Position numbers and translations under genes: made by a program. From NCBI GenBank assembly GCA_001898935.1, contig MKVT01000013.1, positions 310,001 through 374,000 on the forward strand: a DNA stretch of 64,000 nt, given 5' to 3'. The notes below the pieces were generated by a model. The model was given only the letters and a program-made list of their open reading frames with translations. It ran no database searches and had not been told where the DNA came from. The stretch is from Paludibacter sp. 47-17. Its GTDB lineage: Bacteria > Bacteroidota > Bacteroidia > Bacteroidales > Paludibacteraceae. Below are positions 2,878 to 24,590 of this stretch, in pieces (the stretch's first letter is position 1; each line of letters starts with the position of its first letter).

Positions 2878-2923
2878 GTGATTTCTTAAAAATTGAAGAA
2901 TCGCACGATACGATTGCTGTTTC

Positions 2924-2944
2924 TAAATTATTTTATTAATTTTA
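2924..2944 (+). promoter_or_regulatory. AT-rich quasi-palindromic element upstream of GH109 gene
   Basis: TAAATTATTTTATTAATTTTA; shares AAATTATTTTAwTAATT with the elements at 5455-5484 and 24560-24590. Confidence 0.4.
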
Positions 2945-2985: not shown

Positions 2986-4362
2986 ATGAAACGACTTTTT
3001 TTTATGGTACTGGTAGCCCTGCTACTGCCTCAACTCAATGAAGTGGAAGCTTCGAAAGGAACCGGAAAACAAAATCCAATTGTTGTAAAATCGCCTAAAA
3101 GAGCAAAAGGACAAACCGATGTAATCGAACTTCGCGCAGCTCCTATCGACACCGTACGGGTTGCCTTTATCGGACTCGGCAACCGCGGCGTAGGCGCCGT
3201 GCACCGGTTCACGTTCATCCCTACTGCAAAAATCACCGTATTGTGCGACGTCAATCCCGATTACGTCAAACGCTCGGTCGACTACCTGACCAACAAGGGG
3301 ATACCCGCTCCTGCTACCTATACGGGTGCCGACGACTGGAAAAAAGTATGCGAACGCGAAGATGTCGATCTGGTGTATGTATGTACGCACTGGGATTTGC
3401 ACCATCCTATCGGGGTGTATGCCATGAAACAGGGAAAACACGTGGCACTGGAACTGCCCGCCGGACTCACCATGGAAGAAATCTGGGACCTGGTGGACAC
3501 TTCGGAAAAAACCCGTCAGCACTGCATGATGCTCGAGAACTGCAATTACGACTTCTTCGAGATGGCCACACTCAACATGGCCCAGAAAGGCCTGTTCGGT
3601 GAAATCGTTCACGCCGAAGGTGCTTACATACACGACCTGCGCGACCTCAACTTCAGCGAAACCTACTATTGGAACAAATGGAGACTGAAAGCCAACGCCA
3701 CAGAAGAAGGAAACCTTTATCCTACTCACGGCCTGGGCCCGATCGCCCATGCGATGAACATTCACCGCGGCGACAAAATGAACTACCTGGTAACCGTTTC
3801 GTCGGATCAATTCGGAATGACAGAATACGCCAAAAAGAAGTTTGGCGAAAATTCGCCTCAGGCCAAAGCCGAATATAAACACGGCGACATCAACACCACG
3901 CTCGTCAAAACCGAGAAAGGAAAAACAATGATGATTCAGCACGACGTTACCAGCCCCCGCCCCTACAGCCGCCATCATGTTTTAAGCGGAACCAAGGGAT
4001 TTGCACAGAAATATCCTGTACGCGGACTGGCATTCGATCCCAATGCGCACGGTTTCCTGAGCAACGAAAAAATGGAAGCCATGCTGAAAGAATACGAACA
4101 TCCCATTGTTCAAGAAGTGGGCGAACTGGCCCGTAAAGTGGGTGGACATGGCGGAATGGACTTTATCATGGATTATCGCCTGGTGTACTGCCTCAACAAC
4201 GGCCTGCCGCTCGATCAGGACGTGTACGATGCCGCCGAATGGTCGTGCCTTGTGCCGCTCACGAAACTGTCGGTTCAAAACGGCGGCCGCCCGGTTCAGA
4301 TACCCGACTTCACCCGTGGAGCCTGGAACAAAGTAAACACAGTCACTTACTACACAAAATAA
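2986..4362 (+). CDS. Gfo/Idh/MocA family, GH109-type glycosidase (alpha-N-acetylgalactosaminidase-like)
   Basis: Start at the internal ATG with signal peptide (MKRLFFMVLVALLLPQ). Rossmann motif VAFIGLGNRGVGAVHRF, then GKHVALELPAG and HGLGPIAHAMNIHRGDKM. Confidence 0.85.
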   Translation: MKRLFFMVLVALLLPQLNEVEASKGTGKQNPIVVKSPKRAKGQTDVIELRAAPIDTVRVAFIGLGNRGVGAVHRFTFIPTAKITVLCDVNPDYVKRSVDYLTNKGIPAPATYTGADDWKKVCEREDVDLVYVCTHWDLHHPIGVYAMKQGKHVALELPAGLTMEEIWDLVDTSEKTRQHCMMLENCNYDFFEMATLNMAQKGLFGEIVHAEGAYIHDLRDLNFSETYYWNKWRLKANATEEGNLYPTHGLGPIAHAMNIHRGDKMNYLVTVSSDQFGMTEYAKKKFGENSPQAKAEYKHGDINTTLVKTEKGKTMMIQHDVTSPRPYSRHHVLSGTKGFAQKYPVRGLAFDPNAHGFLSNEKMEAMLKEYEHPIVQEVGELARKVGGHGGMDFIMDYRLVYCLNNGLPLDQDVYDAAEWSCLVPLTKLSVQNGGRPVQIPDFTRGAWNKVNTVTYYTK

Positions 4363-4510: not shown

Positions 4511-5437
4511 TCAAAACCGGTTACAACGCTCAAAAAAATTGATAGCCTCCAGTTCTTTTTTCATGGAAGCTTCTTCGGCATCGGTCATATTCTGAAACGG
4601 AGTGCGGTTTTTACCCAAATCGAGCCCAATTAATTTCATAATGCGCTTCCCGCCCACGATATTACCACGGTAATTCACAATCACATTAATCACATCCTGC
4701 GAAAAGTTCTGCAATTCGCGCGCCGTCGCCAGATCGCCTTCGGCCCAGGCCTTACCAATACCAACCAGAGCCCTGCCGTTATAATTGGTCGTGCCGCCGA
4801 TTCCACCCTGCGCACCACCCATCACAAGAGCCGAAAGAATGGTCTCGTCCTGACCATGAAGCATATCGAACTTCCCGCCGGCATACTTCATACATTGATT
4901 GTATTCGTACAAACTCTCGTAAGTATACTTAATACCGGCAAAATTCGGTATACGGCCATCGACAGCCTTCAGAAAAGGCAACATGGGCAGAAAAACACCA
5001 CTTAATGCCGGAATATGATAAAAATAAAACGGCAACCCGGGAGCACCCTCGGCAATCTCTTCACAATACTTGACCAACTCCTCGACACGGCCGGCCTTCG
5101 GAAACGGACTCGCCATCGCTCCTACTCCCCAGGCCCCTATCTGCTGAGCATGCCCGGCCAGCTTCCGGCTCGACTTCACACAGGTAGCACCCACATGCAC
5201 GATCACCTTAAAACCGGCAGGCGAAACCCGCACCCATTCCTCGGCAAGCAGCATGCGTTCCTCTTCGGTGAGCATATACCCCTCGCCGCTGGAACCGTTT
5301 ATAAACACACCCTGCAATCCGTTCTTCTGCAACATCGCCGCATAGGCAGCGATAGGCTTTAAATTCACTTCTCCCCGCTCGTCGAACGGCGTAAAAGGAG
5401 CATTAATCAATCCTTTAATCTTTTCCATATCTCTCAT
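4511..5437 (-). CDS. nanA: N-acetylneuraminate lyase / dihydrodipicolinate synthase family protein
   Basis: GLINAPFTPFDERGEVNL, GVFINGSSGEGYMLTEEER, FYFYHIPALSG, FAGIKYTYESLYEY: DHDPS/NAL family, NAL-like. Start could be 5437 or 5428. Confidence 0.85.
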   Translation of the reverse strand: MRDMEKIKGLINAPFTPFDERGEVNLKPIAAYAAMLQKNGLQGVFINGSSGEGYMLTEEERMLLAEEWVRVSPAGFKVIVHVGATCVKSSRKLAGHAQQIGAWGVGAMASPFPKAGRVEELVKYCEEIAEGAPGLPFYFYHIPALSGVFLPMLPFLKAVDGRIPNFAGIKYTYESLYEYNQCMKYAGGKFDMLHGQDETILSALVMGGAQGGIGGTTNYNGRALVGIGKAWAEGDLATARELQNFSQDVINVIVNYRGNIVGGKRIMKLIGLDLGKNRTPFQNMTDAEEASMKKELEAINFFERCNRF

Positions 5438-5454
5438 GGTATTTAATAATCGTA

Positions 5455-5484
5455 CAAATATAAATAAATTATTTTAATAATTAT
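5455..5484 (-). promoter_or_regulatory. Promoter/operator of the nanA-like gene
   Basis: CAAATATAAATAAATTATTTTAATAATTA. On the - strand TATATTTG (-7), preceded by the perfect palindrome AATTATT-TT-AATAATT (5467-5482). Confidence 0.45.
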
Positions 5485-5501: not shown

Positions 5502-7745
5502 TTATCTAAATCGATCCGAGACCTGAAAATTCAACTTCCCCGCTTTCAGCAGCTCCTGATGAGTAATACGGAACTCCTTCACCGTACGTGAACCCACCTT
5601 CACCGCAGTCGTATAGGGATTGGCGCTTGCACTGGCCGACGTTTCGATCACCAGCTTATCGCGCCCGTGCACCCCGGGATCGAGTCGGATCTCGATCCTG
5701 TCGAAGACCGGAGTAGTCAAGGTATACTCGGCAACTCCCGGCACATCGGGATAAAAACCCATCATACTGAACACCGCCCAGGCCGACATCGTTCCGGTGT
5801 CGTCGTTACCCGGTATGCCTTTGGGCTTATTTTTATAGTGCCGATCCAGCAACCGCCGCACCTCCTTTTGCGTTCGCCAGGCTTCATCGGGAAAATAGCT
5901 AAAAAGATAAGGATATGCTATATCGGGCTCATTGGCCGGATCGTAACGATCCAGATCGAACACCGACTGCAATTGAGCCACAAAAGCCTTTTTCCCTCCC
6001 ATCAACCGGGTCAGGCCTTTCACATCGTGAGGCACATAAAAGGTATAGTTCCATGCATTACCCTCGTGAAAACCCGGGCTCGGCTCAAAATTTTCACCTT
6101 GCATCGGATTAAATGGCGAATAAAACTTCCCGTCGGGCAATCGCGGTCGCAATGTACCGTATTCGGCACTATAATAATGCCGATAGCCCAGCGAACGTTT
6201 ATAGAACAATCCGGCATCGTTTTTTTTGCCCAACTGCCCGGCCAGAGTCGAAAGGGCAAAATCGGCAATATAATATTCCAGCGCATGCGACACCGAATTA
6301 TCGTATTGCTCTCGTAAAGGAATATAACCCAGCTGCATATAATCGTCGTTATCGGGACGCAGCAAATTCTGACTTCCCGGCAAGGTAGCCGATTTATACA
6401 TAGCCTCATAGGCCAGGTGAATATCGAAATCGCGTAAGCCCTTCATCCAGCTATCCACGATCACAGGGATGGAAGGATCGCCCTCCATGGTCAGCGTTTC
6501 GCGGCCATACAGCTCCCATTTGGGCAACCAGCCATGTTCGCGGTACATATCGAGCATCGAGCGAATCATATCGATTTGCCGTTCGGGATATACCAGGGTC
6601 ATGAGCTGATGCACATTGCGGTAGGTATCCCACAACGAAAACACAGTATAGCGGTTTCGTGAAGTTGTTTTAATTTCGTGACTTTCCATGGCCGGATATT
6701 CACCATTCACATCCTGCAAAATATTCGGATGTATGAGCGTATGGTACAAGGCGGTATAAAACACTGCTTTTTGATCGCCGGTACCTCCTTCTACTTTTAT
6801 ACGCGACAACAAGGTGTTCCACTCCTCACGACTTTCCGTGCGAATCTGATCAAAATTTTTATCGAGCTGTTCGGCAATCAGGTTCAGACGGGCATTTTCG
6901 ACACTCACGAACGAAACTCCCAGACTCACCTCTACGGCTTCTCCCTCCCGGGTATCGAACGACAACCAAACACCCACATCATCGCCACTCATCTCCTTTC
7001 GGTACGAAGTGTACAATTTATATTTACCGGCTGTTGTATCCCACTGGGCCTCGACTCCCATCGGACGCATCTTTTTCCAGAAGCCCGACGACGAAGGGAC
7101 CTTATGTACCTTCATCACAAAATAAACCGGGAAGACTGCCTGCGGAGCATAACAAAATCCACCCAATAATTTCGAACCCTCAATTTCGTTCTCCCCTACA
7201 AACCGCACCGTAGCTCCTGTTTCGTTGGTAAGACCTTCGCCCAGATTCAGCAAAATATTGGAATGCCCCCTCGGAAAGGTAAAACGCGCCCTGCCTGTGC
7301 GGAGCGTAGAGGTGACCTCGGCCAGCACATTGTATTTCGACAACCGTACCGAATAATATCCCGGACCGGCTTGTTCGTCGGCATACAGCGAACCGTATTC
7401 CCTATAATCAGGATTCACTCCGCCCGTAGTAGGCATCAGCAACAAAGAGCCCAGGTCGGGGCAGCCTACTCCACTCAGGTTCACATGCGAAAAACCCGTC
7501 AGGAACTTATTGGTGTGATCATAAGGCGTCGACCACCATTGCCGGTCCTTGTCAAACCGGTTCAGATCGGACCCCATCACATTGAAGGGTACCACCGACA
7601 TCAATCCGTTGGGACGAACCGCTCCGGGATGCGTGGTGCCGTAATTAGTGGTACCGATAAAAGGGTTGACATAATCGACCGGTTCCTGTGCCGCCAGCAC
7701 TTGTACTGCAAGCAGCGCCACCAGGCAGGATAATTGTATTTTCAT
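5502..7745 (-). CDS. GH92 family glycosyl hydrolase (alpha-mannosidase-like)
   Basis: DYVNPFIGTTNYGTTHPGAVRPNGLMSVVPFN, TVFSLWDTYRNVHQLMTL, EGNAWNYTFYVPHDVKGL, GNDDTGTMSAWAVFSMMGFYPDVPG; signal peptide. Confidence 0.93.
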   Translation of the reverse strand: MKIQLSCLVALLAVQVLAAQEPVDYVNPFIGTTNYGTTHPGAVRPNGLMSVVPFNVMGSDLNRFDKDRQWWSTPYDHTNKFLTGFSHVNLSGVGCPDLGSLLLMPTTGGVNPDYREYGSLYADEQAGPGYYSVRLSKYNVLAEVTSTLRTGRARFTFPRGHSNILLNLGEGLTNETGATVRFVGENEIEGSKLLGGFCYAPQAVFPVYFVMKVHKVPSSSGFWKKMRPMGVEAQWDTTAGKYKLYTSYRKEMSGDDVGVWLSFDTREGEAVEVSLGVSFVSVENARLNLIAEQLDKNFDQIRTESREEWNTLLSRIKVEGGTGDQKAVFYTALYHTLIHPNILQDVNGEYPAMESHEIKTTSRNRYTVFSLWDTYRNVHQLMTLVYPERQIDMIRSMLDMYREHGWLPKWELYGRETLTMEGDPSIPVIVDSWMKGLRDFDIHLAYEAMYKSATLPGSQNLLRPDNDDYMQLGYIPLREQYDNSVSHALEYYIADFALSTLAGQLGKKNDAGLFYKRSLGYRHYYSAEYGTLRPRLPDGKFYSPFNPMQGENFEPSPGFHEGNAWNYTFYVPHDVKGLTRLMGGKKAFVAQLQSVFDLDRYDPANEPDIAYPYLFSYFPDEAWRTQKEVRRLLDRHYKNKPKGIPGNDDTGTMSAWAVFSMMGFYPDVPGVAEYTLTTPVFDRIEIRLDPGVHGRDKLVIETSASASANPYTTAVKVGSRTVKEFRITHQELLKAGKLNFQVSDRFR

Positions 7746-7798
7746 ATTTTCGTTTCTAAATAAGTACGTACCAAAACCGCATCAGTTCCTCTCGATGC

Positions 7799-9775
7799 TT
7801 ACTCGACAATCACTTCATCGGTAAAAATCCAGCCTCCCAATTCCTTGCTGCTTTGTGCCGAAATTTTCACAAACCGGGCTCTCGCCCGTCCCTTCCATTC
7901 ACAGGTACGGAAAGCAACCGCCCCGGTTTTCACCACCTCGAACTGTTGATGGTATAGCCTGGTATAGCTTTCGCCATCCTCCGATATTTCCACTGTGAAA
8001 CCGGCAGGCAGATACACTTCGGCTCCCTCGCTCTGGATAAAATCAAGCGCGACCGACTTCAATCGCGTGACTTGATCGAGATCGATCACCAACTCCAACC
8101 GGCGCGGCGAAATAAATCCCTGCCACCGTCCGTCGCCGTAGGTCCAGCCACCCCGCCAACCGTCGGTCAGCGCACTGTCGCCACCGGCAGCATACACCTT
8201 CGCGTACGGAGCCAGGTAAGCTACCCGCTTTCCAAGCGCCTTATGGCTCACCCTCGACTTAGCCGCAGGCCGGTTTCCCAGCTCATTCTTCAGCTCAAAC
8301 GGACGATAAGCCATCGCCTTCAGGTAATCCACTTCACGCAAAGCAGCCTTGCGAAACAACGAATACGATTTATTTTCCGCTTTCGACCAGCCAATTTCGG
8401 AAAGCGCCATCGCCCTGGGCCAAAGCATGGTTTCGGCATGAGCTTCGGCCGACACATACTCGGTCCATAAATTGGCCTGCACACCCAGCATCGAATCGCG
8501 ATCCACCCGGTGAGCGACGGTACCAAAGGGTTCGTAGGAGTAAATCTTTTCCAGCGGCGTAAATCCGCCAATAGCTTCAGGCTGCGTATGAGGTGCGTCC
8601 TGATAAGCATCGAGGTAACAATATTCACCGGGCGACATTATAGCTGCGTGCTGTCCGGTGAGCAGGGCAGCAGCACCTCCTCCCTCTCCCCGCCACGACA
8701 TCACCGTTGCACCAGCCGGTATGCCGCCTTCAATTATCTCGTCCCAACCGAGCAACCTGCGGCCATTCTGCCGCAAAAAGCTTCCCACCTGGGATACAAA
8801 CCAGCTTTGTAGTTCTTTTTCGTTGTGTAAACCATGATCGTGTATGCGCGCCTGGCAATCCGCACATTTCTCCCACGACGATTTATTCGCCTCATCGCCA
8901 CCAATATGAATAAAACGGGAAGGAAACAAGTCCATCACTTCGGTCAATACATTTTTAATAAATGCCAGCGTAGTGTCCTTCCCCGGGCAAAACTCGCCAT
9001 GATGGTAAGGCATGCCGGTACACGAAAGCTCGGGATATACCGCCAGCACCTCCTCCGAATGTCCCGGCATTTCAATTTCAGGAATAATGGTGATATGCCG
9101 TTCGGCAGCGTACCGGATAATCTCACGCATATCATCCTTGCTGTAAAACCCTCCTTGCGCTCCGGGAGTATCGCGATGCAGGTAGTTACGGTCGCCGTTC
9201 CACCAGGGCTTCCACTCCCGGTGTGTTCGCCAGGCAGCCACCTCGGTAAGCAGCGGATAACGGTCGATCTGCAACCTCCATCCGGCCGCATCGGTAAGAT
9301 GCAAATGCAAGGTATTCAACTTATACCGGGCCATGGCATCGAGTTGTTTCAGAATAAAGGCCTTCGGATAAAAATGACGCGACACATCCAGCATCAATCC
9401 ACGGTAAGCAAAACGCGGACTATCGGCAATTCGAACCGAAGGAATGCGCATCACTCCCGACCTCGACACCTTCATGAGCTGAGCAAGCGTCTGCAGTCCA
9501 TAAAAATGACCCTTCTCATGACGGGCTTCCACCCGAATACCTGCAGGACTTACCTCCAGCCGGTAACTCTCGTCCGACGGAAACCTCATCCGGTCCGGAG
9601 AGACAACCACCTCCACCTGTTCCCGCAGCCAAACTTCCGGAGCGCCGTGTATTGCGGCTTTATACTCTCCCTTACGCCATTCCACAGAAGCCGGAACCGG
9701 GATTATGCGCACACGCTCCCGGGCACAAACCCACGAAAACTGTCCCACCAATACGATGATCATCAATATTCTCAT
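7799..9775 (-). CDS. GH20 family beta-N-acetylhexosaminidase
   Basis: RGLMLDVSRHFYPKAFI, LNTLHLHLTDAAGWRLQI, PEIEMPGHSEEVLAVYPELSC, IHIGGDEANKSSWEKC. Confidence 0.93.
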   Translation of the reverse strand: MRILMIIVLVGQFSWVCARERVRIIPVPASVEWRKGEYKAAIHGAPEVWLREQVEVVVSPDRMRFPSDESYRLEVSPAGIRVEARHEKGHFYGLQTLAQLMKVSRSGVMRIPSVRIADSPRFAYRGLMLDVSRHFYPKAFILKQLDAMARYKLNTLHLHLTDAAGWRLQIDRYPLLTEVAAWRTHREWKPWWNGDRNYLHRDTPGAQGGFYSKDDMREIIRYAAERHITIIPEIEMPGHSEEVLAVYPELSCTGMPYHHGEFCPGKDTTLAFIKNVLTEVMDLFPSRFIHIGGDEANKSSWEKCADCQARIHDHGLHNEKELQSWFVSQVGSFLRQNGRRLLGWDEIIEGGIPAGATVMSWRGEGGGAAALLTGQHAAIMSPGEYCYLDAYQDAPHTQPEAIGGFTPLEKIYSYEPFGTVAHRVDRDSMLGVQANLWTEYVSAEAHAETMLWPRAMALSEIGWSKAENKSYSLFRKAALREVDYLKAMAYRPFELKNELGNRPAAKSRVSHKALGKRVAYLAPYAKVYAAGGDSALTDGWRGGWTYGDGRWQGFISPRRLELVIDLDQVTRLKSVALDFIQSEGAEVYLPAGFTVEISEDGESYTRLYHQQFEVVKTGAVAFRTCEWKGRARARFVKISAQSSKELGGWIFTDEVIVE

Positions 9776-9776
9776 A

Positions 9777-12700
9777 TCACTCCCCCATTACCAATTCCAA
9801 CTTTCCCCCCTTCATCAACTCCGCGTGAGTAAAGAAGGGCTCCTTCCGTTTTTTACCGTTCAACTTCATCGATCGAATGTATTTCGCCGAACGGGAATTA
9901 TGGCGGGCAACAATTTCAAAGGTTTTATCCCCGGGAAGCCGAATCACCACCCTGTCAAACAACGGGCGGCCAATCGAATAGGTAGGATCGCTGGGCGCAA
10001 TCTGGTAAAAACCCATCGCGTTCATCACATACCAGGCCGACATTTGTCCGCAATCCTCATTACCCGACAAACCGTCGGGATCGGCACGATAAAGCGATTG
10101 CAGCACACTATCGGCCAATTCCTGTGTTTTATACGGCCGGCCGGCCTTGTTGTACAAATGAATGATGTGATGGCTCGGCTCATTTCCATGCGCATACTGA
10201 CCAATCAACCCCGTGATATCGGCCGACACCAGTTCACCCTCCATCGCCGACTCCGCCATAAACAACGAATCCAACCTCTCGGCAAAACGTTTCCGTCCTC
10301 CCATCAGCTGCTGCAAACCCTCTACATCGTGCGGCACAAACCAGGTCCACTGCCAGGCTGTACCCTCACAATAATCGTCGCTGCGATGATTCGACGAACG
10401 CGGATGAAAAGGCGTACGCCAGTTGCCCTGTGCATCTTTTCCTCTCATAAACCCTGTCGACTTATCGAAATAATGCCTGTAATTCAGCGCCAACTGCTCG
10501 TAGCGATCGGCAATCGCTTTCTCACCCATCGCCCGGGCCATTCGCGCTATGCACCAATCGTTGTATGCATACTCGAGCCCCTTGGCTACCGATTCGATTT
10601 CCGAATCAAACGGAATATACCCCAGGGTGTTTTTATACTGCTTCGACAAAGGCATCAAACCATGATCGCGCACGTAGCGGGTCGAACGAATCGCCGCCGT
10701 ATCGTATACCGAACTCCGGATCATCGCCTGCAAAGCCTTTTTCGCATCAAAACTCCTGTCGCCCTTCATATACGCATCCACGATCACCGGTACCGCATGA
10801 TAGCCGATCATCGTACCCGTGTAATTAGCCGCCAGCTCCCACATCGGCAGAATACCTCCTTCGTCGTATTTTTTAAGCAACGACCCGATAAAGGCACTGT
10901 TCCGGTCGGGATCGATAATCGTGAGCAGAGGATGCAAGGCCCTGAAGGTATCCCAGAGCGAAAACACGGTATAGACCTCCTGACTGCCGGTCGTACGCAC
11001 CGACTTATCCATCGCCTTATAACGGCCGTCTACATCACTGAAAACATTCGGGGCGATAGCTGTATGATACAGGGCTGTATAAAAAATCTCCTTCTGCGTG
11101 GCATCGTCGGTTTCGATTCCGATCTTCGACAGATAACTGCGCCATGCCTCCTTCGCCTCTTCGTGTACCCGGTCGAAATCCCAACCGGGAATTTCGGCCA
11201 GGAGATTTTTGCGTGCGCCTTCCATATCCACATGCGAGATGCCCAGCTTCACCAACACCTGCTCGCCCTCGGCCGTAGCAAAATGCAACAGCACTTTTTT
11301 GCGCGGATAGGTCTGCCGCCGGGCCTGCACCTTCAGAGTATCGTCGATAATCGTGTAACCGAAAGGCTTCGAAAACACCGCATAAAAAGCAATCTCCTGA
11401 TCCCATGCCCAGCCTTGCGTATTTTTCCGCCCCCTGATCGTGGAATCGTTGACCACCTCCACCTCCATCATCGTATTGATGTATTTCTGCAAGGTATAAT
11501 CCATATCGAGCACAAATCCGGCACTATCGGTTTTCGGGAATGTGTAGCGATGAATAGCGGCACGCCGGGTGGCTGTGAGCTCGGCAAACACCTCGTAGCG
11601 ATCGAGCCATACCGAATAGTAACCCGGGGAAGCTTTCTCGTTTTGATGCGAAAAACCCGAAGCATACGACACATTTTGGGCGGCAGTACCTTCAAACTCC
11701 ATATCCTTGGTTCCCACGGTGGGCATAATCAGAAAATCGCCATAATCGCCTATGCCCGTCCCGCTGAGATGGGTGTGCGAAAAACCGTTGATCAGCGAAT
11801 CGGTGTAATGGTATCCCGAACAGGCATCCCACCCCAGCATCCGGGTGTCGGGACCGGGCTGAATCATCCCATGCGGGAGCGTAGGCCCCGGAAAGGTATG
11901 ACCATGCCCTCCGGTACCGATAAACGGGTTCACATACGACAACAGGTCGGGTGCATACAATTCGCCGGGAAGCTGAACGCTGTAGCTGTCGGACGAGCGC
12001 ACACCCGGCTTCGTTTCGCCCTGAAAAACGATAAGCCGGTTTCCGAACCGGGCCGCAGCCGCTCCCGCCCGCGCCAGCTGAGGAACTTCCAGCACCTCCT
12101 GCCAGCGGTCGGTCTTCACATTGTAAATCAACACCAACGGATTGAACTGATACCATTGCGGATCGTGCGACAGGTAACGGCGGCGCAACGACAGAGCTTC
12201 GACACCCTTGAACCGGGCTTCGCGCTGCAAGGCTTTCAGGAACACGCCGCGATGTACGCCGCCGGTATACACGAAAAGCGAATCGTTCCACTGCGTCGCG
12301 GTAGCTCCTCCCAGCGAAACAGGCTGTCCGCGGCGATCGGTGGGCGGAAGCAAACCGGTCCACCTGTCCTCGTCGGCATCGTACCGCAATCCGTCTACCG
12401 AGACCGAGGCCGGACGATCGTCTCCGGCAGCAGCAAAGCCACCGAAAAGGAAAAGCTGCAGTTTGCCATTGGCCTGAGAAGCAGTGAGCACTGGCTGAAC
12501 GCGAGGCGGACCCGGGAAGGATGCCAGCTGCTCCCAACCCTTATCGGGCTCGTTCATATCGAGACAATACAATGCATTGGAGGGCTGCCCGGCAACAAGT
12601 CCACCCGCCACAAACACCCGGCTCCCGGCCCTCACACCGGCCATATTATCGATAGGATGCGGCAGCGAAGGCAACGATTCGATGACAGGCAGCGCTCCTG

Positions 12701-13097
12701 CTCCCATATGGTACAGATCGACCGACGATTGCGACCCTCGTGCGTTTTGTCCGCCAATGTAGATAAATCCATCAGAAGCCGGCACTGCCACCCCATAGGC
12801 GAGCGGCTGCCGGAGCCGGCCGGCAGACCACCAGCTCCGGCCGTTCCACCCCAGAATCTGGCTGTAGTAACGTTTGGCTCCACCATCAACAGCGGGCGTT
12901 TCGGGAAAATTGCATCCTCCGGCAACAAACAATACCGAACCCGATTGTACCAGGGCTGCTGCAGAAACTCCGTGGCCGGCACCTTGTTCGGTATAGGGCA
13001 CTGCCGGCAAACGGTCGACGCGGCCCTTTCCGGGAGCCGCGTTCAACACCAATACCGACCAGCAAAGCAGTACCGCCGCCTTCATCTGTACGTTCAT
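9777..13097 (-). CDS. Kelch/NanM-like (cyclically permuted mutarotase) domain fused to a GH92 glycosyl hydrolase
   Basis: N-terminal ~380 aa has Kelch-type repeats (LFVAGGCNF, GFIYIGGQNARGSQSSVDLYHM, RVFVAGGLVAGQPSNALYCLDM, LFLFGGFAAAG...). C-terminal ~725 aa is canonical GH92 (SYVNPFIGTGGHGHTFPGPTLPHGMIQPGPDTR...GNEDCGQMSAWYVMNAMGFYQIAPS). Confidence 0.88.
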   Translation of the reverse strand: MNVQMKAAVLLCWSVLVLNAAPGKGRVDRLPAVPYTEQGAGHGVSAAALVQSGSVLFVAGGCNFPETPAVDGGAKRYYSQILGWNGRSWWSAGRLRQPLAYGVAVPASDGFIYIGGQNARGSQSSVDLYHMGAGALPVIESLPSLPHPIDNMAGVRAGSRVFVAGGLVAGQPSNALYCLDMNEPDKGWEQLASFPGPPRVQPVLTASQANGKLQLFLFGGFAAAGDDRPASVSVDGLRYDADEDRWTGLLPPTDRRGQPVSLGGATATQWNDSLFVYTGGVHRGVFLKALQREARFKGVEALSLRRRYLSHDPQWYQFNPLVLIYNVKTDRWQEVLEVPQLARAGAAAARFGNRLIVFQGETKPGVRSSDSYSVQLPGELYAPDLLSYVNPFIGTGGHGHTFPGPTLPHGMIQPGPDTRMLGWDACSGYHYTDSLINGFSHTHLSGTGIGDYGDFLIMPTVGTKDMEFEGTAAQNVSYASGFSHQNEKASPGYYSVWLDRYEVFAELTATRRAAIHRYTFPKTDSAGFVLDMDYTLQKYINTMMEVEVVNDSTIRGRKNTQGWAWDQEIAFYAVFSKPFGYTIIDDTLKVQARRQTYPRKKVLLHFATAEGEQVLVKLGISHVDMEGARKNLLAEIPGWDFDRVHEEAKEAWRSYLSKIGIETDDATQKEIFYTALYHTAIAPNVFSDVDGRYKAMDKSVRTTGSQEVYTVFSLWDTFRALHPLLTIIDPDRNSAFIGSLLKKYDEGGILPMWELAANYTGTMIGYHAVPVIVDAYMKGDRSFDAKKALQAMIRSSVYDTAAIRSTRYVRDHGLMPLSKQYKNTLGYIPFDSEIESVAKGLEYAYNDWCIARMARAMGEKAIADRYEQLALNYRHYFDKSTGFMRGKDAQGNWRTPFHPRSSNHRSDDYCEGTAWQWTWFVPHDVEGLQQLMGGRKRFAERLDSLFMAESAMEGELVSADITGLIGQYAHGNEPSHHIIHLYNKAGRPYKTQELADSVLQSLYRADPDGLSGNEDCGQMSAWYVMNAMGFYQIAPSDPTYSIGRPLFDRVVIRLPGDKTFEIVARHNSRSAKYIRSMKLNGKKRKEPFFTHAELMKGGKLELVMGE

Positions 13098-13109
13098 ATA
13101 TAATGTGTT

Positions 13110-15422
13110 TTATTTCAATACAATTTCATCTACAAACAAGAAACCGCTACGGCCGCGACCTCCGTGCCACTCGGGAATCGAGCGTTCCGATCCGGCAATT
13201 ACCTTCACATAGCGGGCCTTTACCGGAATAAAATTCAATTCATGTGCATAAATGCCGCTCTCGGCCTGACGGGTAGCGGCAGGATATTCCTCACCGGCTA
13301 CCCGGGTAAAGGTTTCGCCATCGGCCGACACTTCGACCGCAAAACTACGGGCATCGAAAATCCAGTCGCCATTCACCACATTGCAGGTGATAGAGGCATG
13401 CGACAGCTCGGTAGGTTCCTCAAAATCGATCACCACCTCCATATCGTTGCCCGCAAAGGCAATCCACCTTCCGGTTTTGTAGTTCGCATTTCCGCGCAAC
13501 CCGTCCACCAACACCGAAGCGCCGTTGTAGCGGTACTGCCGGTTGATGGGTTGCAGAGCCTTAATGGGCTTCAGGCTGGCTTTGCTCAAGGCTACCCGCT
13601 CGGTAAGCACCCTGCTTTTTTCGTTCCCTCTGATTACGACGGCCGACACCTCGGCATCTTTATTCAACTGCAACAGAGGAGTATACACCGGAGAGCTTTT
13701 CGTAGGTTCCGATCCGTCCAGGGTGTAATGAATCGGTGCATTGTCGATGGTCGAGAAGGCAATATCGAGCGTACCATTGGCCGCATTGGGCTTAAAATCG
13801 GCTGTAATATCGAAAAGATGCCGGGCATACCTGTAATTATGATAGCTGTAACGCTCCATCATAGGCAACAGCCGTTTCAGAAATGCATCGTAATTTTTCT
13901 TTTCGGGTTGCATCCACTGCACTTCGGCCAATGCAGCCATACGGGGAAGCACCATGTATTGAACATGACCGAACACCGGCATATACTCGCGCCATACATT
14001 GGCCTGTACTCCTAAAATATGTTTTTGCTGACCGGGAGTAAGTTGCGAAGGAATCGGCTCGAAATTATACACCATTTCAACCGGAGAATAGCCCCCTATA
14101 GCCAGAGGTTCCTGATCGACATCCTTGGTTTGATAATGATCGAAATACAAAGGCGAATTGGGAGTCATAATCACATCATGACCTTGCCGGGCAGCTTCAA
14201 TACCGCCTCCCATTCCCCGCCACGACATTACGGTAGCATTAGGGGCCAGTCCGCCTTCCAGAATCTCGTCCCAGCCGATGAGGCGGCGTCCGTGCTTATT
14301 CAGGAATTGTTCGGCATGGGTAATCGCAAAACTCTGCAGGCGATCTTCGGCGGAATGATGTTCGTCGGCAACCAAGCCCAGCGCCTTGATACGCGCCTGA
14401 CACCTGGGACATTCTTTCCAACGGGTCTTGGGACATTCATCGCCTCCGATATGAATGTATTCCGAAGGGAAAATCCGGAGCACTTCGTCGAGCACATCGG
14501 TGATAAACCCGAGGGTTTTATCGTTACCGATGCACAATACGTCGTCGGACACTCCCCACATGGTCCATACCTCGTAAGGTCCGCCGGTACATCCCAGCTC
14601 GGGATAGGCTGCCAAAGCGCCCAGCATATGGCCGGGCATATCGATTTCAGGGATGATGGTGATATAACGCTCCTGAGCATACTTTACGATCTCGCGAAGC
14701 TCATCCTGCGTATAATATCCTCCGTGCGGCTTCCCGTCGTAGGTCCCGGAATTACGCCCGATTACCGTTTCCTTCCGTTTCGAACCTATTTCGGTGAGAC
14801 CCGGATATTTTTTGATTTCAATCCGCCATCCCTGATCGTCGGTGAGGTGCCAGTGAAAACGATTCACATTGTGCAATACCAGCATATCGATGAATACCTT
14901 CACGTTCTCGACCGATTCAAAATGACGCGATGCATCGAGCATCATGCCACGGTAACCGAAACGGGGCGAATCCTTGATGACCACTGCCGGCAACGCAACC
15001 GGACCCCGGGCTCCAAAAGGAAGCGACTTGCGCAGGGTTTGTATGCCGTAGAATACCCCGGCGGCCGTGGAGCCGGAAATGGTTACGCCCTTTGCATCTA
15101 CTTTCAGCACATACCCTTCGGGATGTTGTACCGTATTATCAATCAACAGATGAATACCCGTCTTACCCTTACCCGCTTTTACCGGCGATCCCGCCCCCAG
15201 CGCATCGCGCAGGTAATTGCTCAGATACTGGGCATTACGCTGCATTTCGGCATTTTTCCCCGGGTAATACACCTTCACCCCGGGTTGAAGCTGGTAAGGC
15301 GCTCCTCCCTGCAATTCGATACTGCCGGGAAGCGGAATTACCTGATAATCGACGGCGGCAAACAGCCGGGTACATGCCAATACTAGAATTGTTACTACTG
15401 ATAATCGTTTTAATGTCTTCAT
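13110..15422 (-). CDS. GH20 family beta-N-acetylhexosaminidase with C-terminal F5/8 (discoidin)-like domain
   Basis: RGMMLDASRHFESVENVKVF, RFHWHLTDDQGWRIEIKKYPGLTEIGS, IPEIDMPGHMLGALAAYPELGCTGG, IHIGGDECPKTRWKECPRC. Confidence 0.94.
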   Translation of the reverse strand: MKTLKRLSVVTILVLACTRLFAAVDYQVIPLPGSIELQGGAPYQLQPGVKVYYPGKNAEMQRNAQYLSNYLRDALGAGSPVKAGKGKTGIHLLIDNTVQHPEGYVLKVDAKGVTISGSTAAGVFYGIQTLRKSLPFGARGPVALPAVVIKDSPRFGYRGMMLDASRHFESVENVKVFIDMLVLHNVNRFHWHLTDDQGWRIEIKKYPGLTEIGSKRKETVIGRNSGTYDGKPHGGYYTQDELREIVKYAQERYITIIPEIDMPGHMLGALAAYPELGCTGGPYEVWTMWGVSDDVLCIGNDKTLGFITDVLDEVLRIFPSEYIHIGGDECPKTRWKECPRCQARIKALGLVADEHHSAEDRLQSFAITHAEQFLNKHGRRLIGWDEILEGGLAPNATVMSWRGMGGGIEAARQGHDVIMTPNSPLYFDHYQTKDVDQEPLAIGGYSPVEMVYNFEPIPSQLTPGQQKHILGVQANVWREYMPVFGHVQYMVLPRMAALAEVQWMQPEKKNYDAFLKRLLPMMERYSYHNYRYARHLFDITADFKPNAANGTLDIAFSTIDNAPIHYTLDGSEPTKSSPVYTPLLQLNKDAEVSAVVIRGNEKSRVLTERVALSKASLKPIKALQPINRQYRYNGASVLVDGLRGNANYKTGRWIAFAGNDMEVVIDFEEPTELSHASITCNVVNGDWIFDARSFAVEVSADGETFTRVAGEEYPAATRQAESGIYAHELNFIPVKARYVKVIAGSERSIPEWHGGRGRSGFLFVDEIVLK

Positions 15423-15435
15423 TTCGTTCTTTTTA

Positions 15436-18000
15436 TTAGGGGTAAGTCGCCCGTATATGATTTAATTTTATGGTTTTTGCATCAATCTTTTCTCCCTTGG
15501 GAGTGGTAACCCGTATCTTTTTTGTTTCACCGGGGAGCAAATCGAAGAAGTTGTCGGTAAACCGGGTGCCGTGAACGGGAATTTCAACGAACACATCCTT
15601 GGCCAGCTTGTCCGATTTCAGGGTCAGTTCGTACGAACCCGCGGCTTCTTTCAAACTGAACCGGATCGCCGGCTGTGGAAGATTCAAATCCTTGGTCTTG
15701 TTGAAGAAATATACATCGCCTGCCTGAACATTGCCTTGCGAATCCACCAGACGCACCACTAAATAACTTTCGCGACGCTGGACTTCATTCAGCACGCGGC
15801 TCACCGGCTCTTCGTACACCACTGCCGAACTATTGGCCGGAAGTGCAACCGGCAACCGCAGGGTTTTTAGCTTTTTCCCCGAAAAGCCGGTCCATTGCAA
15901 CTCCAGGGTCATCCCTGTTTTTTCTTCCAAATAATCATTTACCAGGTAAATCCGCAGCGAATCGTTGCGTTGCATCGGGCTGATGAGCAGCGGTGCAAAC
16001 GCTTTGGCCGTATGATAGTGAAGGGCTTTCCAGTTGTTGTAATAATCGATCGACGACCACGACACCACCGGCCAGCTATCGTTGAGCTGCCAGTACAAGG
16101 TGCCCATGCAATACGGACGGTTGCGCCGCTGCGCTTCAAAACCATAGCGCATCCCCCTGCCTTGCAGCACCGAACCTACATACACAAAATCCTCAAACTT
16201 CTCCGGAATTATGTAATCGCGCTCCATATAAGTCCTGATCAGCGAATTGCCGATCGTACTTTTCTGATGAGCATTCATCACTTCCGACTCGATCGCATAA
16301 TCGGAAGGGTCGGCAAACGAAGCAATGGTTTTCATTTCGGGAAACGACTGAAAACCAAACTCACTCATAAAACGTCCGAGATCGGTATCAAAACTTTCGA
16401 AAGGCTTGCGACCATACCATACACCCCAATTATGACTATCGCCACGCGACCAGGACTCCGGCCGCCCCCAGGTGCTGGTAAGCGGCGAACCGTGAATATA
16501 CGACCTCCCCGGATCGTAAGTCGAAACTGCATGAGGAAGCAATTCACGGAAAAGACGGTCGTAGCCCACGAACATTTCATCATACACTTGCGGAGTGTAC
16601 CGTTTCGCCCATCCCCAGTAATGCATCCCTTCGAGAATCTCATTGTTACCGCACCACATTGCCAGCGAAGCATGATTCCGGAGCCGGGTAATATTATACG
16701 CCACCTCATCCTGTACCCGCTTCAAAAAAGCAGGATCGTGCGGATAAGTGGTACACCCGAACATAAAATCCTGCCAAACCAGAATCCCGTGCCGATCGGC
16801 CAGTTCGTAAAACAGGTCGTCTTCATATGCACCCCCGCCCCACACACGGATCATATTCATGTTGGCTTGTACAATATTCTCGAACAACAGCCGGTAGCGC
16901 TCCGGAGTCACCGAAGGTAGCATCGCATCCGAAGGAATATAATTGGCACCCTTGGCATAAATCGGAATACCGTTCACTTCGAAATAAAACGACTGCCCCC
17001 ACCGGTCGTCTTCATTTACCAGCTTGACGGTTCGCAAGCCTATATGCTGGCTGTACGAAGCAATGGCCTGTCCTTTCTGCATCAACACCACCTCTTGCCT
17101 GTACAACACCGGCTTACCCCATCCCCGGGGCATCCAGCGCTGAGGCTTCAGAATATCGACCGGAATTTCAACCTGATTCACCGAAGGCTTCAGGTTCAGC
17201 ATTTTTGTTTGGCCGGCAGCTACCTTACCATCGAGCAGGTAGCGCACGATCAGTTCGACCTGCTGATCGGCTCCCGAAACATTATCGATCCGGATAACAT
17301 TGGCGACCGACGCTTTTTCGTCGTTCAGGGAAAGCTGCCGGTGATGCACATCGTCGATAATCGCCGTATTGAACATCCGTAGAGATACCGGGCGCCACAC
17401 ACCGCTGGTAACCATGCGTATTCCCCAGTCCCATCCGTAGCTGTAAGGCGCTTTACGTGTATAAACACTCAACTTTTTATCGTGATGATCGTTGTCGGCA
17501 GGATAATTAAATCCCGTCGATTCCCATTGGGGCAAGGTTTGCCGTACAGGCGAATGAAAATAAATATGCAGGCGGTTCTCACCTTCGCGTACCACCGGCT
17601 TTACATTTACCACATGGCCTACGAACATGTTATCGGAACGCAGAATAAGCGAACCATTCAGGTATACATCGGCATAGGTATCGAGTCCTTCGAATACGAG
17701 CTGGAGCGCATCGTGCTTCAGCTGCGATGCCGTGAGCCGGAACTGCGTACGGTATTCCCAGTCTTTTTCTTCTACCCATTGAATTTTCTTTTCATTGGTA
17801 CCCCGGAACGGATCCGGCAACTTTTGAAGGCGAATCAGGTCCTGATGCACAGTGCCGGGCACTTCGGCCGGAAACCAGGTATTGGTTCCCGCTTGCGAAA
17901 ACTCCCACTTACTGTGAAGCTGAAGGGTTTCGGCAGCTAAAAAGGGCGCCGGCAATAACAGGAGGATAAGTAATAACTGTTTACACGTTGGTTGCAACAT
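15436..18000 (-). CDS. GH2 family beta-mannosidase-like glycosidase
   Basis: AEVPGTVHQDLIRLQKLPDPFRGTNEKKIQWVEEKDWEYRTQF, VRKAPYSYGWDWGIRM-type region, NMIRVWGGGAYEDDLFYELADRHGILVWQDFMFGC, WCGNNEILEG. Confidence 0.92.
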   Translation of the reverse strand: MLQPTCKQLLLILLLLPAPFLAAETLQLHSKWEFSQAGTNTWFPAEVPGTVHQDLIRLQKLPDPFRGTNEKKIQWVEEKDWEYRTQFRLTASQLKHDALQLVFEGLDTYADVYLNGSLILRSDNMFVGHVVNVKPVVREGENRLHIYFHSPVRQTLPQWESTGFNYPADNDHHDKKLSVYTRKAPYSYGWDWGIRMVTSGVWRPVSLRMFNTAIIDDVHHRQLSLNDEKASVANVIRIDNVSGADQQVELIVRYLLDGKVAAGQTKMLNLKPSVNQVEIPVDILKPQRWMPRGWGKPVLYRQEVVLMQKGQAIASYSQHIGLRTVKLVNEDDRWGQSFYFEVNGIPIYAKGANYIPSDAMLPSVTPERYRLLFENIVQANMNMIRVWGGGAYEDDLFYELADRHGILVWQDFMFGCTTYPHDPAFLKRVQDEVAYNITRLRNHASLAMWCGNNEILEGMHYWGWAKRYTPQVYDEMFVGYDRLFRELLPHAVSTYDPGRSYIHGSPLTSTWGRPESWSRGDSHNWGVWYGRKPFESFDTDLGRFMSEFGFQSFPEMKTIASFADPSDYAIESEVMNAHQKSTIGNSLIRTYMERDYIIPEKFEDFVYVGSVLQGRGMRYGFEAQRRNRPYCMGTLYWQLNDSWPVVSWSSIDYYNNWKALHYHTAKAFAPLLISPMQRNDSLRIYLVNDYLEEKTGMTLELQWTGFSGKKLKTLRLPVALPANSSAVVYEEPVSRVLNEVQRRESYLVVRLVDSQGNVQAGDVYFFNKTKDLNLPQPAIRFSLKEAAGSYELTLKSDKLAKDVFVEIPVHGTRFTDNFFDLLPGETKKIRVTTPKGEKIDAKTIKLNHIRATYP

Positions 18001-18135: not shown

Positions 18136-19707
18136 CTATTGATTGTATCCTGCCGTTTGTTTTAATTCAGGATTCTGATTCAGCGTATTCACATCAACCG
18201 GCCAAAGCAATTTATAGGCTTCCGATGCCGGTATAAGGGGAGTTCCGGCAGGATAACCCGCCACAGGTGAGAACGCGAGTGAATTGCCGGCTGCATCGCG
18301 CATGCGCACTACGTCGAACCACCGTTTGCCTTCCCATACGAATTCCTTATCGCGCTCCTTCAGAATAGCCAGTTCGTTGTCGGCAAAACTACCGTCGGCA
18401 TAAGCATGAATAGCGGCATCGTAGGCAGCTCCAAACGCTCTTTTACGGATTTCGTTCACATAACTGGCACAACTGCCGGTGAGTCCGTTCTCGATTTCGG
18501 CCATCATCAGGATGGCATCGGCATAACGGTATAAAATGATATCGGCATCGAAAATCCGATCGTTGGTCGAATTGATCGAACCTAACCCTTTTTTCATTAC
18601 CAGACCGGGGCCGGTGCTTGCAGCAGCATCGTTGTAGTAATCCATGAACGTAGCGTCGCGGCGAATGTCGCCCGGTGCATACGACTGGAACAGCTCGAAT
18701 TTATACTCATGGCGGAACACCCCTCCACGACCTTTAAGCACCAGGGTATCGCCCATTAATTTACCATTCCGGCCATATTTCTGATTCAGGAATACTGCAT
18801 CCTGATAAAGGTACATTCCACCGTAGTTGGTTGCTTCGGTATCGGCAAAACGTAAGGCAAAAATTACTTCCTTATCATTCTTGGTCGAGAAGACTTTCGC
18901 AAAATCGCTTTGCAGTGCAAAATTACTATTACCGATTACACTTTGAAGTGCCGTTTTAGCTACCTGCAAATCGGCATTTCCTCCTTTAGGCTGATCGAGT
19001 ACAGGCACTTTGGCCGCCCACAAATAGATTTCGGCTTTCAGCATTTTTGTAGCGTACACCGACCATTCCGAACGGGCAGGAATAGCAGTGGAAGCACCGA
19101 ACAAAGTTTCCGACTTGTTGATATCCGATTTGATAAGCTCCAGCGTTGCCTTGGCAGTTGCACGCGGAATATAGAATTTATCGGCCGATACTTTTCCATT
19201 CAACACCTCTACCGTCGTAACCAGCGGCACATTGCCGTAGGTGCGGTACAGGAAGAAATAATACAATGCACGGATACCGTAAGCCTGCGCCAGGTAAGTG
19301 CTACGAGCTTCGGCGGTAAGAAAAGGAGTTGCTTTTTCATCCTCTACTTTCAAAATGAACAGATTGACGTTGAGCAGACGGCTGTAAATTCCGTACCATC
19401 CCGAAATTCCGGTATTATTTGCATCCAGGTTGTTGGTTTTAATCCGCTCCTGATCGAGACTGGTATTTTGCGACGAAGTACCGGTTTTGTGGGTACCACC
19501 ACGGGCTTCACCCAAATCGTGCAACATAGCATAACTATTACGCAGGGTAGCATGCATGCCATACATAAAACCTTTCACCTGGGCTTCGTTGTTCCAGAAG
19601 TTATTGCTGCCGTAGTAGTCTTCCGGACCGATATTCAGCGAATCTTCGCAGGCCCCGAACAATAAAGCAAGTCCCAGGAAAGTGAATATATAAATGAACT
19701 TTTTCAT
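18136..19707 (-). CDS. RagB/SusD family nutrient-uptake outer membrane lipoprotein
   Basis: Lipobox (LALLFGACEDSLN); FWNNEAQVKGFMYGMHATLRNSY, AYGIRALYYFFLYRTYGNVPLVT, KERDKEFVWEGKRWFDVVRM. Confidence 0.95.
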   Translation of the reverse strand: MKKFIYIFTFLGLALLFGACEDSLNIGPEDYYGSNNFWNNEAQVKGFMYGMHATLRNSYAMLHDLGEARGGTHKTGTSSQNTSLDQERIKTNNLDANNTGISGWYGIYSRLLNVNLFILKVEDEKATPFLTAEARSTYLAQAYGIRALYYFFLYRTYGNVPLVTTVEVLNGKVSADKFYIPRATAKATLELIKSDINKSETLFGASTAIPARSEWSVYATKMLKAEIYLWAAKVPVLDQPKGGNADLQVAKTALQSVIGNSNFALQSDFAKVFSTKNDKEVIFALRFADTEATNYGGMYLYQDAVFLNQKYGRNGKLMGDTLVLKGRGGVFRHEYKFELFQSYAPGDIRRDATFMDYYNDAAASTGPGLVMKKGLGSINSTNDRIFDADIILYRYADAILMMAEIENGLTGSCASYVNEIRKRAFGAAYDAAIHAYADGSFADNELAILKERDKEFVWEGKRWFDVVRMRDAAGNSLAFSPVAGYPAGTPLIPASEAYKLLWPVDVNTLNQNPELKQTAGYNQ

Positions 19708-19728: not shown

Positions 19729-22700
19729 TTAGAATGTTAAATTAAGACCAAAAATAACAGTTAACGGCAGAGGGTATCCACCCCAAACACTCGATACCTC
19801 GGGCGAGAAGATGTGTGGAGCCTCGGTCCAGTAACCTAGATTCTGACCGGTTACCGAGAATTCGGCATTGGCAAGACGGGCTTTTTCGACGATTGCTTTC
19901 GGCAGGGTATATCCGATGGTAAGCTCCCGGAACGAGAGATAATCGCCATCGTAGGCAAACATCGATGTATTGCGTGCATAATTACGTTTACCAAGCTGGT
20001 CGGCCCAAGTATAAATCGGATAGGCTGCATTGGGATTTTCGGGGGTCCATGTCAACTTCGTATCGTTGATGGAGTTATACGTCCCCTGCATATTACCCAT
20101 GATCCACGGTGTACGCTGATCCACGATAGTATGCCCTAAAGCATAGTCGAAACGGGCATTCAGACGGATACCTTTGTACGAAACATTGGTATTGAAACCA
20201 CCGGTAATGGTGGGCGTCGAATTACCTACTTTTACAAGATCATAATTATCGATAATATTGTCGCCATTCACATCGCGCCATTTCACATCACCTGGCTCAA
20301 TAGGCAGAGAATTGGCTTTTTCGGTTGCAGTCAGCGTATTAAAAGCTTCAGTTCCTCCATAAAGCGGACGACCGTTGGACCCATTATTACCGGAAGTACG
20401 GTCGATGAGGTTTGCAGGTATTTCGTCTTGCGACTTATAGATCCCTTCGGCAACGAACAGGTAAATATCGCCGGGACGCTGCCCTTCCTGCAAACCGCCT
20501 ACCCATATTTTTTCGTACGGATCGTTGGGATTAGTCCCCGAATATACCTGGAAGGCATTCTGACGGTTGAGTTCCAATCCGTTTTCGGGTAGTTTAATTA
20601 CCTTATTGGCATTGTAGGCCCCCAGTAAACTCACATTCCATTTCAGATTCTTGTTGTCGATAACCGCGTAATTGAACTCGTATTCAAATCCCCGGTTCTG
20701 AAACTCTCCGTTATTGGAAGTAATGGTCGAAATACCCGACAAGGAAGGAACTGTGATGTTGGCAAATTTATCGAAAGTATTACGGTTGTAATAGGTCAGG
20801 TTCGCAGTCAGACGGTTTTTGAAGAAACCTAAATCGAGACCGAATTCGGTAGTATTCGAAGTTTCCCAAATCAAATACGGATTGGCAATTCCCCCGATAG
20901 TATACCCTACCAGATTGTTGTATTTGGTGCTCGCATACGAACCCTGCACGGTGTAGTTTCCTACCCAGTTGGCCGACACATTACCGTTGCGGCCGTAGCT
21001 GGTACGGAACTTACCGAACGACAGCACATTGTCGTATTCGGTCATGAAATCTTCTTTGGTGAATACCCAACCCAACGAAATACCGGGAAAGTTACCGAAA
21101 CGGTTTTGTTCGGCAAGTTTCGAGTAACCGTCGCGACGGAATACAAACGAAGCCAGGTATTTGTCTTTGTAGTCGTAGTTCAGACGTCCGAAATACGAGA
21201 CGATACGGTTGCGGGCATGTTCGGTATCGATCGAACGCAGCCCTTCCTTCGTACTGGTGTATTGCAAGTCGGCAAAGTCGTCGGTCGGAGCACCCGATCC
21301 CGATGCAGCCAGGTTGCGGTAATAGCTTTCGTAGTACTCGTAACCCGCCATGGCCGACACATTATGAGCCTCGGCGAAGGTACGGTTATAGTTCAGCACT
21401 CCGTTGTAAGTCTGATCCACCATGCGCGACGACGAGGCAGAAGAGTTGCGCGTAGTTACCAGTGCTGTCGGAGAGTTTTTATAGTCCTTGTTGAACGATT
21501 CGTAACGGCCATCCGAAATATACCAGTTGGCATTTAATTTCAGCGACAAACCTTCGGCAAGTGCAATGTTGAACGATTGCGCCATGGTAAATTTCGTAGT
21601 ATTATTGTCGCGCACAAATTTTTCGAGCTGGAACGCCTGGTTACCATCACCGGCATTGGGCCCCAACAGGGCTTCGCCTTTTGCATTGTAACCTCGGAAA
21701 GTGGTAGGAAGCGAAAGCACACGGGTAAAATAATTCTGCTCATCACCCTGTGTAGGAGCCAGCCCATACCATTTCGCATCGGCAAAGTTGAACGTCGAGC
21801 TGGATGTCAACCAATCTTTTACCTTATAATCGCCGTTGAACTGGAAAGTAAGACGTTTATACCAGTTACCCACAGCAGTTCCCTCGCTGTCGTTGTATCC
21901 AATACCGGCATAATAGTTTCCTCTATCATTGCCTCCGCTCATGTTGATATTATAATCCTGTGAAGTGGAAGGCGATACGATATTGAAATCGGAAATATCA
22001 AAATTCTTGTAAATGATTTCACCTCCAAACACCGGATCGGTCATGGTGAGCCAACCTTCGTTTTTCAAAAACTCCAGATCGCTGGTAAGTTTCATTGGGC
22101 TCCAGATAGCTTGTGTATTTGTATTACCGTCCAACGGTATCGTGTTGGCAGCATCGGCCCAATATTTATTACCTGTACCATAGGGGGTAGCATTGTTGAG
22201 TGTACCGATAGCAGCCCATGCTTTAATATTGGTGCCGTCAGGATACTGACGGGCAGGTACCACTGTACCATCGGCCTTTGTATATGTACCTACATTGGCA
22301 TTCTTATACGACATACGCATCCAATACAAATAGTCGGTAGCATTCATAAAATCGTAAGGCTCACGAAAATAGTTCATTCCCACTTTTGCTTTTACGCTTA
22401 CGATACCAGGTCCTTTTTTACCACGCTTGGTCGAAACCAGCACCACCCCGTCATTGGCACGGGCACCATAAATAGCTGTTGCTCCGGCATCCTTCAATAC
22501 TTCCATCGATTCGATATCTTCAGGATTAATGTCGCTGAGCGAACCGCGCACCTGACCATCCACAATAATCAGCGGCGAACCCGAACCATCGAAGTTCGTT
22601 CCTCCACGAAGCGTAATCGATGGAGTAGCACCCGGATTCCCCGACGACTGCACCACCCGCAAACCGGCCACAGCACCCGAAAGGGCCTGCGCTGGGTTTG

Positions 22701-24559: not shown

Positions 24560-24590
24560 CAAATATAAATATATTATTTTATTAATTAAT
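24560..24590 (-). promoter_or_regulatory. Promoter/operator upstream of the AGE-SusC-SusD operon
   Basis: CAAATATAAATATATTATTTTATTAATTAAT: TATATTTG (-7) on - strand plus the AT-rich element shared with 5455-5484. Confidence 0.45.

Follow-up and report, generated by a model that had tools for sequence, protein, structure and literature searches.

Three similar sites, almost purely A and T, that stand before a nanA-like gene, an AGE-SusC-SusD operon and a GH109 gene are very probably operators of NanR, a HTH repressor of the ROK family whose gene is unlinked to them. By this reading NanR would cover the three promoters until released by sialic acid or one of its products, and would have some ten co-targets scattered over the genome, other genes for taking sugars off host glycoproteins. 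All three sites lie in the window, the 64 kb stretch of DNA analysed here (C13:310001-374000 of a genome of 4.18 Mb in 39 contigs); the features are listed in Table 1.

Reading from 24434 on the minus strand, one unit contains, in order, AGE (N-acylglucosamine 2-epimerase), SusC, a NanU-like SusD, GH2, GH20, a NanM-GH92 fusion, GH20 and GH92. The nanA-like gene lies downstream of GH92 with its own promoter in the intervening gap, and its product has N-acetylneuraminate lyase as best NCBIfam match, under the curated cut-off; the GH109 gene is convergent to it. The fusion is an unusual one, a 1106 aa frame (9777-13097, minus strand) that joins a sialic-acid mutarotase of the NanM/YjhT type (residues ~43-376) to a GH92 alpha-mannosidase (384-1105). 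The main ORFs between 46 and 48239 include no regulator of the SusR, hybrid two-component or ECF sigma/anti-sigma kind, the sole two-component pair being at 42.7-45.4 kb beside exporter genes. The preliminary description of this DNA had called the locus devoid of a regulator gene, which is correct for the window, the NanR gene being on contig C34.

Table 1. Features of the window and predicted NanR-type sites elsewhere in the genome (scores with the outside-genera matrix unless stated)
Feature	Position	Strand	Evidence or score
Operator 3 (NanR-type, predicted), upstream of GH109	2919-2940	+	19.7 bits; 20.1 with matrix lacking Parabacteroides-type sites
Weak -7-like box TAATTTTA of GH109, overlapping operator	2937-2944	+	Sequence and inference
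GH109 gene (alpha-N-acetylgalactosaminidase family)	2986-4362	+	Glyco_hydro_109_C 1.1e-53
nanA-like gene, N-acetylneuraminate lyase (DHDPS family)	4511-5437	-	Pfam DHDPS 3.7e-48
-7 box TATATTTG, nanA promoter	5455-5462	-	sigmaABfr consensus; 3 nt overlap with operator edge
Operator 1 (NanR-type, predicted), nanA promoter	5460-5481	-	20.0 bits; 19.6 with matrix lacking Parabacteroides-type sites
Remainder of operon: GH2 (mannosidase type), GH20, NanM-GH92 fusion, GH20, GH92	5502-18000	-	Pfam; gaps 2-136 bp, one strand
SusD, NanU-like	18136-19707	-	NanU match 1.6e-75, below cut-off
SusC	19729-23103	-	TIGR04056 above cut-off
AGE, first gene of operon	23139-24434	-	Pfam 7e-45; NCBIfam AcylGsamEpipAGE 2.6e-107, under curated cut-off
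-7 box TATATTTG, AGE promoter	24560-24567	-	Sequence; 3-base overlap with operator
Operator 2 (NanR-type, predicted), promoter of AGE-SusC-SusD-GH operon	24565-24586	-	17.3 bits; 18.9 with matrix lacking Parabacteroides-type sites
Site before GH20	C21		20.0 bits
Site before haem/transferrin-type TonB-dependent receptor, with -7 box	G000:C29:19813-19834 (L203:4014)		19.8 bits
Site before sulfatase	C20		19.0 bits
Site overlapping end of dapA-type gene, ~120 bp before proline dehydrogenase/aldehyde dehydrogenase gene	G000:C17:3704-3725 (L202:3704)		19.0 bits
Site before GH84	C8		18.8 bits
Site before sialidase	C9		18.2 bits
Site before sulfatase	C31		16.4 bits
Site before GH31	C21		16.2 bits
Site before sulfatase	C21		15.7 bits
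Site before MFS gene adjoining nanR	C34		15.6 bits

The three sequences named in the preliminary description were all found where it had placed them. When the whole 4.18 Mb genome was searched with up to three mismatches, the 29-mer CAAATATAAATAWATTATTTTAWTAATTA occurred at only two places (5455 and 24560), both in the window, and the reversed 29-mer had no match in the genome; a 16-mer search of the window gave four matches at three places, against 0.76 expected. The operator itself was modelled by a palindromic mixture model trained on 67 non-redundant 220 bp regions upstream of nanR or nanA, taken from other genera only. Four widths were compared, and the best likelihood was that of 22 bp (wTTAATAAAaTAtTTTATTAAw), widths 18 and 24 having converged on unrelated GC-rich patterns. 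Scanned over the 64 kb, this outside-genera matrix placed exactly the nanA, GH109 and AGE sites first, second and third, with a gap of 11 bits between them and the fourth-best score of 5.7 bits; with the matrix lacking Parabacteroides-type sites the next score after the three was 4.1 bits. The number of hits at or above 14 bits in Markov-simulated 64 kb sequences was 0.03, although one of the 60 simulations reached 16.3 bits. The likeness of the three sites, as first described, is thus upheld, although two details have changed. The palindrome AATTATT-TT-AATAATT gives way to the dyad kept by relatives, TAAA-WWWW-TTTA, whose axis lies ~4 bp away (5470/5471 in the nanA operator), and the GH109 site, taken to share only a core, is a full operator as strong as the other two. 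In Parabacteroides gordonii, the region from nanR to susC holds a site identical to the nanA operator at 22 of 22 positions, and few positions separate the GH109 operator from the site in the nanR/nanA intergenic region of Bacteroides nordii (L255 and L079, respectively).

The association of this motif with NanR, like the motif itself, its conservation and its set of targets, was observed directly in the genomes. Sites of at least 15 bits are present at 31 of 36 NanR-linked loci and at 2 of 44 unlinked ones among 80 named loci (Fisher 1e-14, a value that involves non-independent related genomes and a matrix itself derived from NanR-linked loci); with a cross-validated matrix, a site was found at 11 of 12 NanR-linked Parabacteroides-type loci versus 1 of the 44 unlinked. 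Many Parabacteroides-type genomes have a ROK protein within a few kb of nanA, and the nanA upstream regions of such genomes carry TTATTAAAATATTTTATTTATATTTGC, one base off the site in the window. One of the two unlinked loci with a site (L077) comprises just 1.8 kb upstream of nanA. The other (L066) is a contig of the same-genus genome G014, in which nanA is on one contig (C100) and nanR-like genes are on another (C56) beside another AGE, an arrangement similar to that of the genome studied here. At the latter place (L149, 6708-10673), three tandem NanR-like ROK regulators adjoin the AGE gene.

The NanR candidate, P0004, is a protein of 402 aa encoded at G000:C34:199314-200519, on a different contig from the window. 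The genome has exactly two ROK proteins, both on C34 and 9 kb apart, one of which is kinase-like; P0004 is the only HTH-ROK protein, with an N-terminal winged HTH (HTH_24 + ROK), and does not have the GGT phosphate-binding residues of the neighbouring ROK kinase (DIKHFR versus DMGGTN). Its closest solved relatives include Mlc and a Vibrio ROK regulator (1z05), and it scores 198 bits against the NCBIfam NagC model, whose cut-off is 650. In 36 of the 80 named relatives an orthologue is encoded no more than a few kb from nanA-AGE, with 50-71% identity across most or all of its length, and of 247 genomes sampled from the order 53 gave a match at E up to 1e-60, with identities that vary greatly. 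From family, position and relatedness, rather than from the BT0433 sequence itself, P0004 is probably orthologous to the Bacteroides regulator BT0433. Its gene adjoins an MFS transporter gene whose product is 70% identical to the MFS protein of the Bacteroides clarus nanA operon, and is therefore probably NanT. The location of nanR on C34, outside the window and away from the nan operon, is a matter of position and not of function. At its own promoter no operator scores above 3.8 bits (7.4 if one base is deleted), and autoregulation in this genome, for which TTTATTAAAAATAATATTTATATTTG had been picked by eye, was given up once the region had been scored. Several relatives do carry an operator at their own nanR gene; neither this feature nor adjacency to the nan genes defines what NanR does.

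The operator could be real and yet be read in this genome by another HTH protein or by a global Crp-like factor. This is improbable, though NanR is unlinked here, the nanR promoter is without a good site and a Crp-like global regulator of sugar use is known from Bacteroides thetaiotaomicron (PMC3878776). A different regulator fits poorly with P0004 being the genome's only HTH-ROK protein, with the co-occurrence of the motif and P0004 orthologues in many genera, and with the same-genus genome G029, where site, nanR and nanA stand side by side. That one regulator serves the three units, as originally proposed, appears well supported, the motif being the conserved operator that accompanies NanR (ROK) orthologues across the Bacteroidales.

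The geometry of the promoters bears on how NanR would act. The sigmaABfr -7 consensus is TAnnTTTG (PMC7366714), and the -7 and transcription start positions given here are predictions. The box TATATTTG, initially described as following right after the palindrome at the nanA and AGE sites, is present at both, but it overlaps the operator edge, and the operator fills the spacer upstream. Similarly, a regulator had been proposed to sit over the -33 region; the promoter is indeed covered, but what is covered is roughly the -33/-7 spacer and not the -33 element alone. The sialidase, C20 sulfatase and TonB-receptor promoters resemble those of nanA and AGE, the operator being inside the spacer at the first two. 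The GH84 operator follows the -7 box and precedes the start codon, and that of GH20 is ~55 bp in front of the -7 box. Since targets differ in where the operator stands with respect to the -7 box, it is not the promoter itself, and a repressor accounts for this variation better than a promoter element would. Bacteroidota promoters often have AT-rich spacers, and the site abuts TATATTTG at nanA and AGE, so that the shared sequence might be just the AT-rich core promoter (spacer and -7 box) of the primary sigma factor, with no dedicated regulator. We consider this very unlikely, as the palindrome also occurs outside the spacer, other -7 boxes in the window are without it (next best score there 5.7 bits) and its presence tracks NanR linkage.

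Genome-wide counts rest on two pattern searches, a model search and the scanning of selected stretches, and are therefore lower bounds. Scoring of the matches from the two pattern searches gave at least 13 sites of 15 bits or more, of which 11 precede sialic-acid, amino-sugar or sulfo-glycan genes (GH31 being counted without an established action on GalNAc). The other two, on C17 and C29, fall outside this target set, and the C17 site is perhaps due to chance. The four weakest sites (15.6-16.4 bits) score 12.9-15.0 with the cross-validation matrix. Two weak matches, one preceding an ABC-F gene (13.9 bits) and the other at C9:355349 (13.5 bits), were left out of the set. A covariance profile search of the genome, using a 22 bp model, which is short, and with 150 of 1628 candidates scored, reached a best E of 1.4, and all its places were within the known set. 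The two patterns occurred at 19 and 11 places, against 9 and 4 when reversed. The neighbours of the eight reversed-pattern control sites were transglutaminase-like proteins, a subtilase, an efflux protein, RteC, unknowns and one SusC relative, in contrast to the sialic-acid, amino-sugar and sulfo-glycan genes of the operator set, and the concern that the motif might occur at background frequency before unrelated genes was not borne out. Chance resemblance of AT-rich intergenic DNA, suggested by the near-pure A and T composition and by the existence of eight independent control sites, is the least credible explanation, given the ranking of exactly these three sites on top by an outside matrix, the difference in neighbours and the presence of a site at three of the only seven sulfatases of the genome (P ~1.5e-6 for 13 sites, ~3,400 genes being assumed).

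Several targets are conserved in relatives. In G014, a 20.7-bit site precedes a sialidase (59% identical), a 14.3-bit site lies between the orthologues of sulfatases B and A, with that of C following A, and a 19.2-bit site precedes a GH27-type gene. The three sulfatase orthologues are thus clustered around one operator (L251, G014:C93, 770-6464), whereas the sulfatases are scattered in the genome of the window, which suggests that the cluster was dispersed, or assembled, while the control site was kept. In B. congonensis a susCD pair and a sialidase-GH20 unit are each preceded by a site, as are MFS-nanA-AGE and nanR in B. clarus.

Our working hypothesis is that a NanR dimer binds the 22 bp palindrome, which in each promoter spans the spacer and takes in the edge of the -7 box, and thereby blocks primary (sigmaABfr-type) RNA polymerase. 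The signal would be Neu5Ac or a breakdown product (for example ManNAc or GlcNAc(-6P)); on reaching the ROK domain it would cause NanR to be released, allowing joint expression of nanA, the AGE-SusCD-glycosidase operon and GH109, as well as of the scattered units for sialidase, GH20, GH84, GH31, three sulfatases and the NanT-like transporter. We infer binding, repression and inducer; relief of repression by sialic acid or a product is suggested by the HTH-ROK architecture and by the Bacteroides fragilis data discussed below. It is tempting to speculate, though we hold this tentatively and at somewhat short of even chances, that in this lineage host-glycan foraging answers to one master switch, the unlinked NanR, which would respond to sialic acid or an amino-sugar product and directly control sulfatases, sialidase, GH20, GH84, GH109, GH31, the N-glycan locus and the haem/transferrin-type TonB receptor in place of per-locus polysaccharide sensors. 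NanR control would predict that desulfation and the trimming of mucin and N-glycans are switched on together with sialic-acid catabolism. Judged from sequence, a distant monosaccharide repressor can apparently take charge of a PUL that has no local sensor, a point that bears on how regulation is read from gene neighbourhoods.

In Bacteroides, a ROK regulator of sialic acid and GlcNAc use, NanR (BT0433), has been predicted in 11 genomes, with a limited number of extracellular targets (PMC3878776). The system described here is alike in its ROK-type HTH regulator, its sialic-acid and amino-sugar targets and the outer-membrane or extracellular nature of some of them, and our operator was learned from Bacteroides and Parabacteroides loci rather than from the published logo (PMC3878776). 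In B. fragilis, deletion of nanR makes the aldolase (nanL) constitutive, and sialic acid induces nanLE, nanT, nanOU, sialidase and hexosaminidase; how the nanR-linked derepression comes about was described there as unclear (PMC3969230), a question that a conserved 22 bp operator with a defined list of targets makes directly testable. No literature on nanLET promoters came up in a search. The B. fragilis regulator is likewise a putative sialic-acid-responsive HTH repressor, but the evidence there is experimental and the gene, beside nanLET, is 5' of the nan operon. NagC and Mlc of Proteobacteria share the ROK fold with an N-terminal HTH, although the sequence relation is only moderate and phylum and targets are different. 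Their operators are AT-rich palindromes, as here. The present finding is a member of the known Bacteroides NanR regulon kind; what is new is a regulator unlinked from nanA-AGE and a broad set of targets scattered over many contigs, including GH84, GH109, GH31 and three sulfatases.
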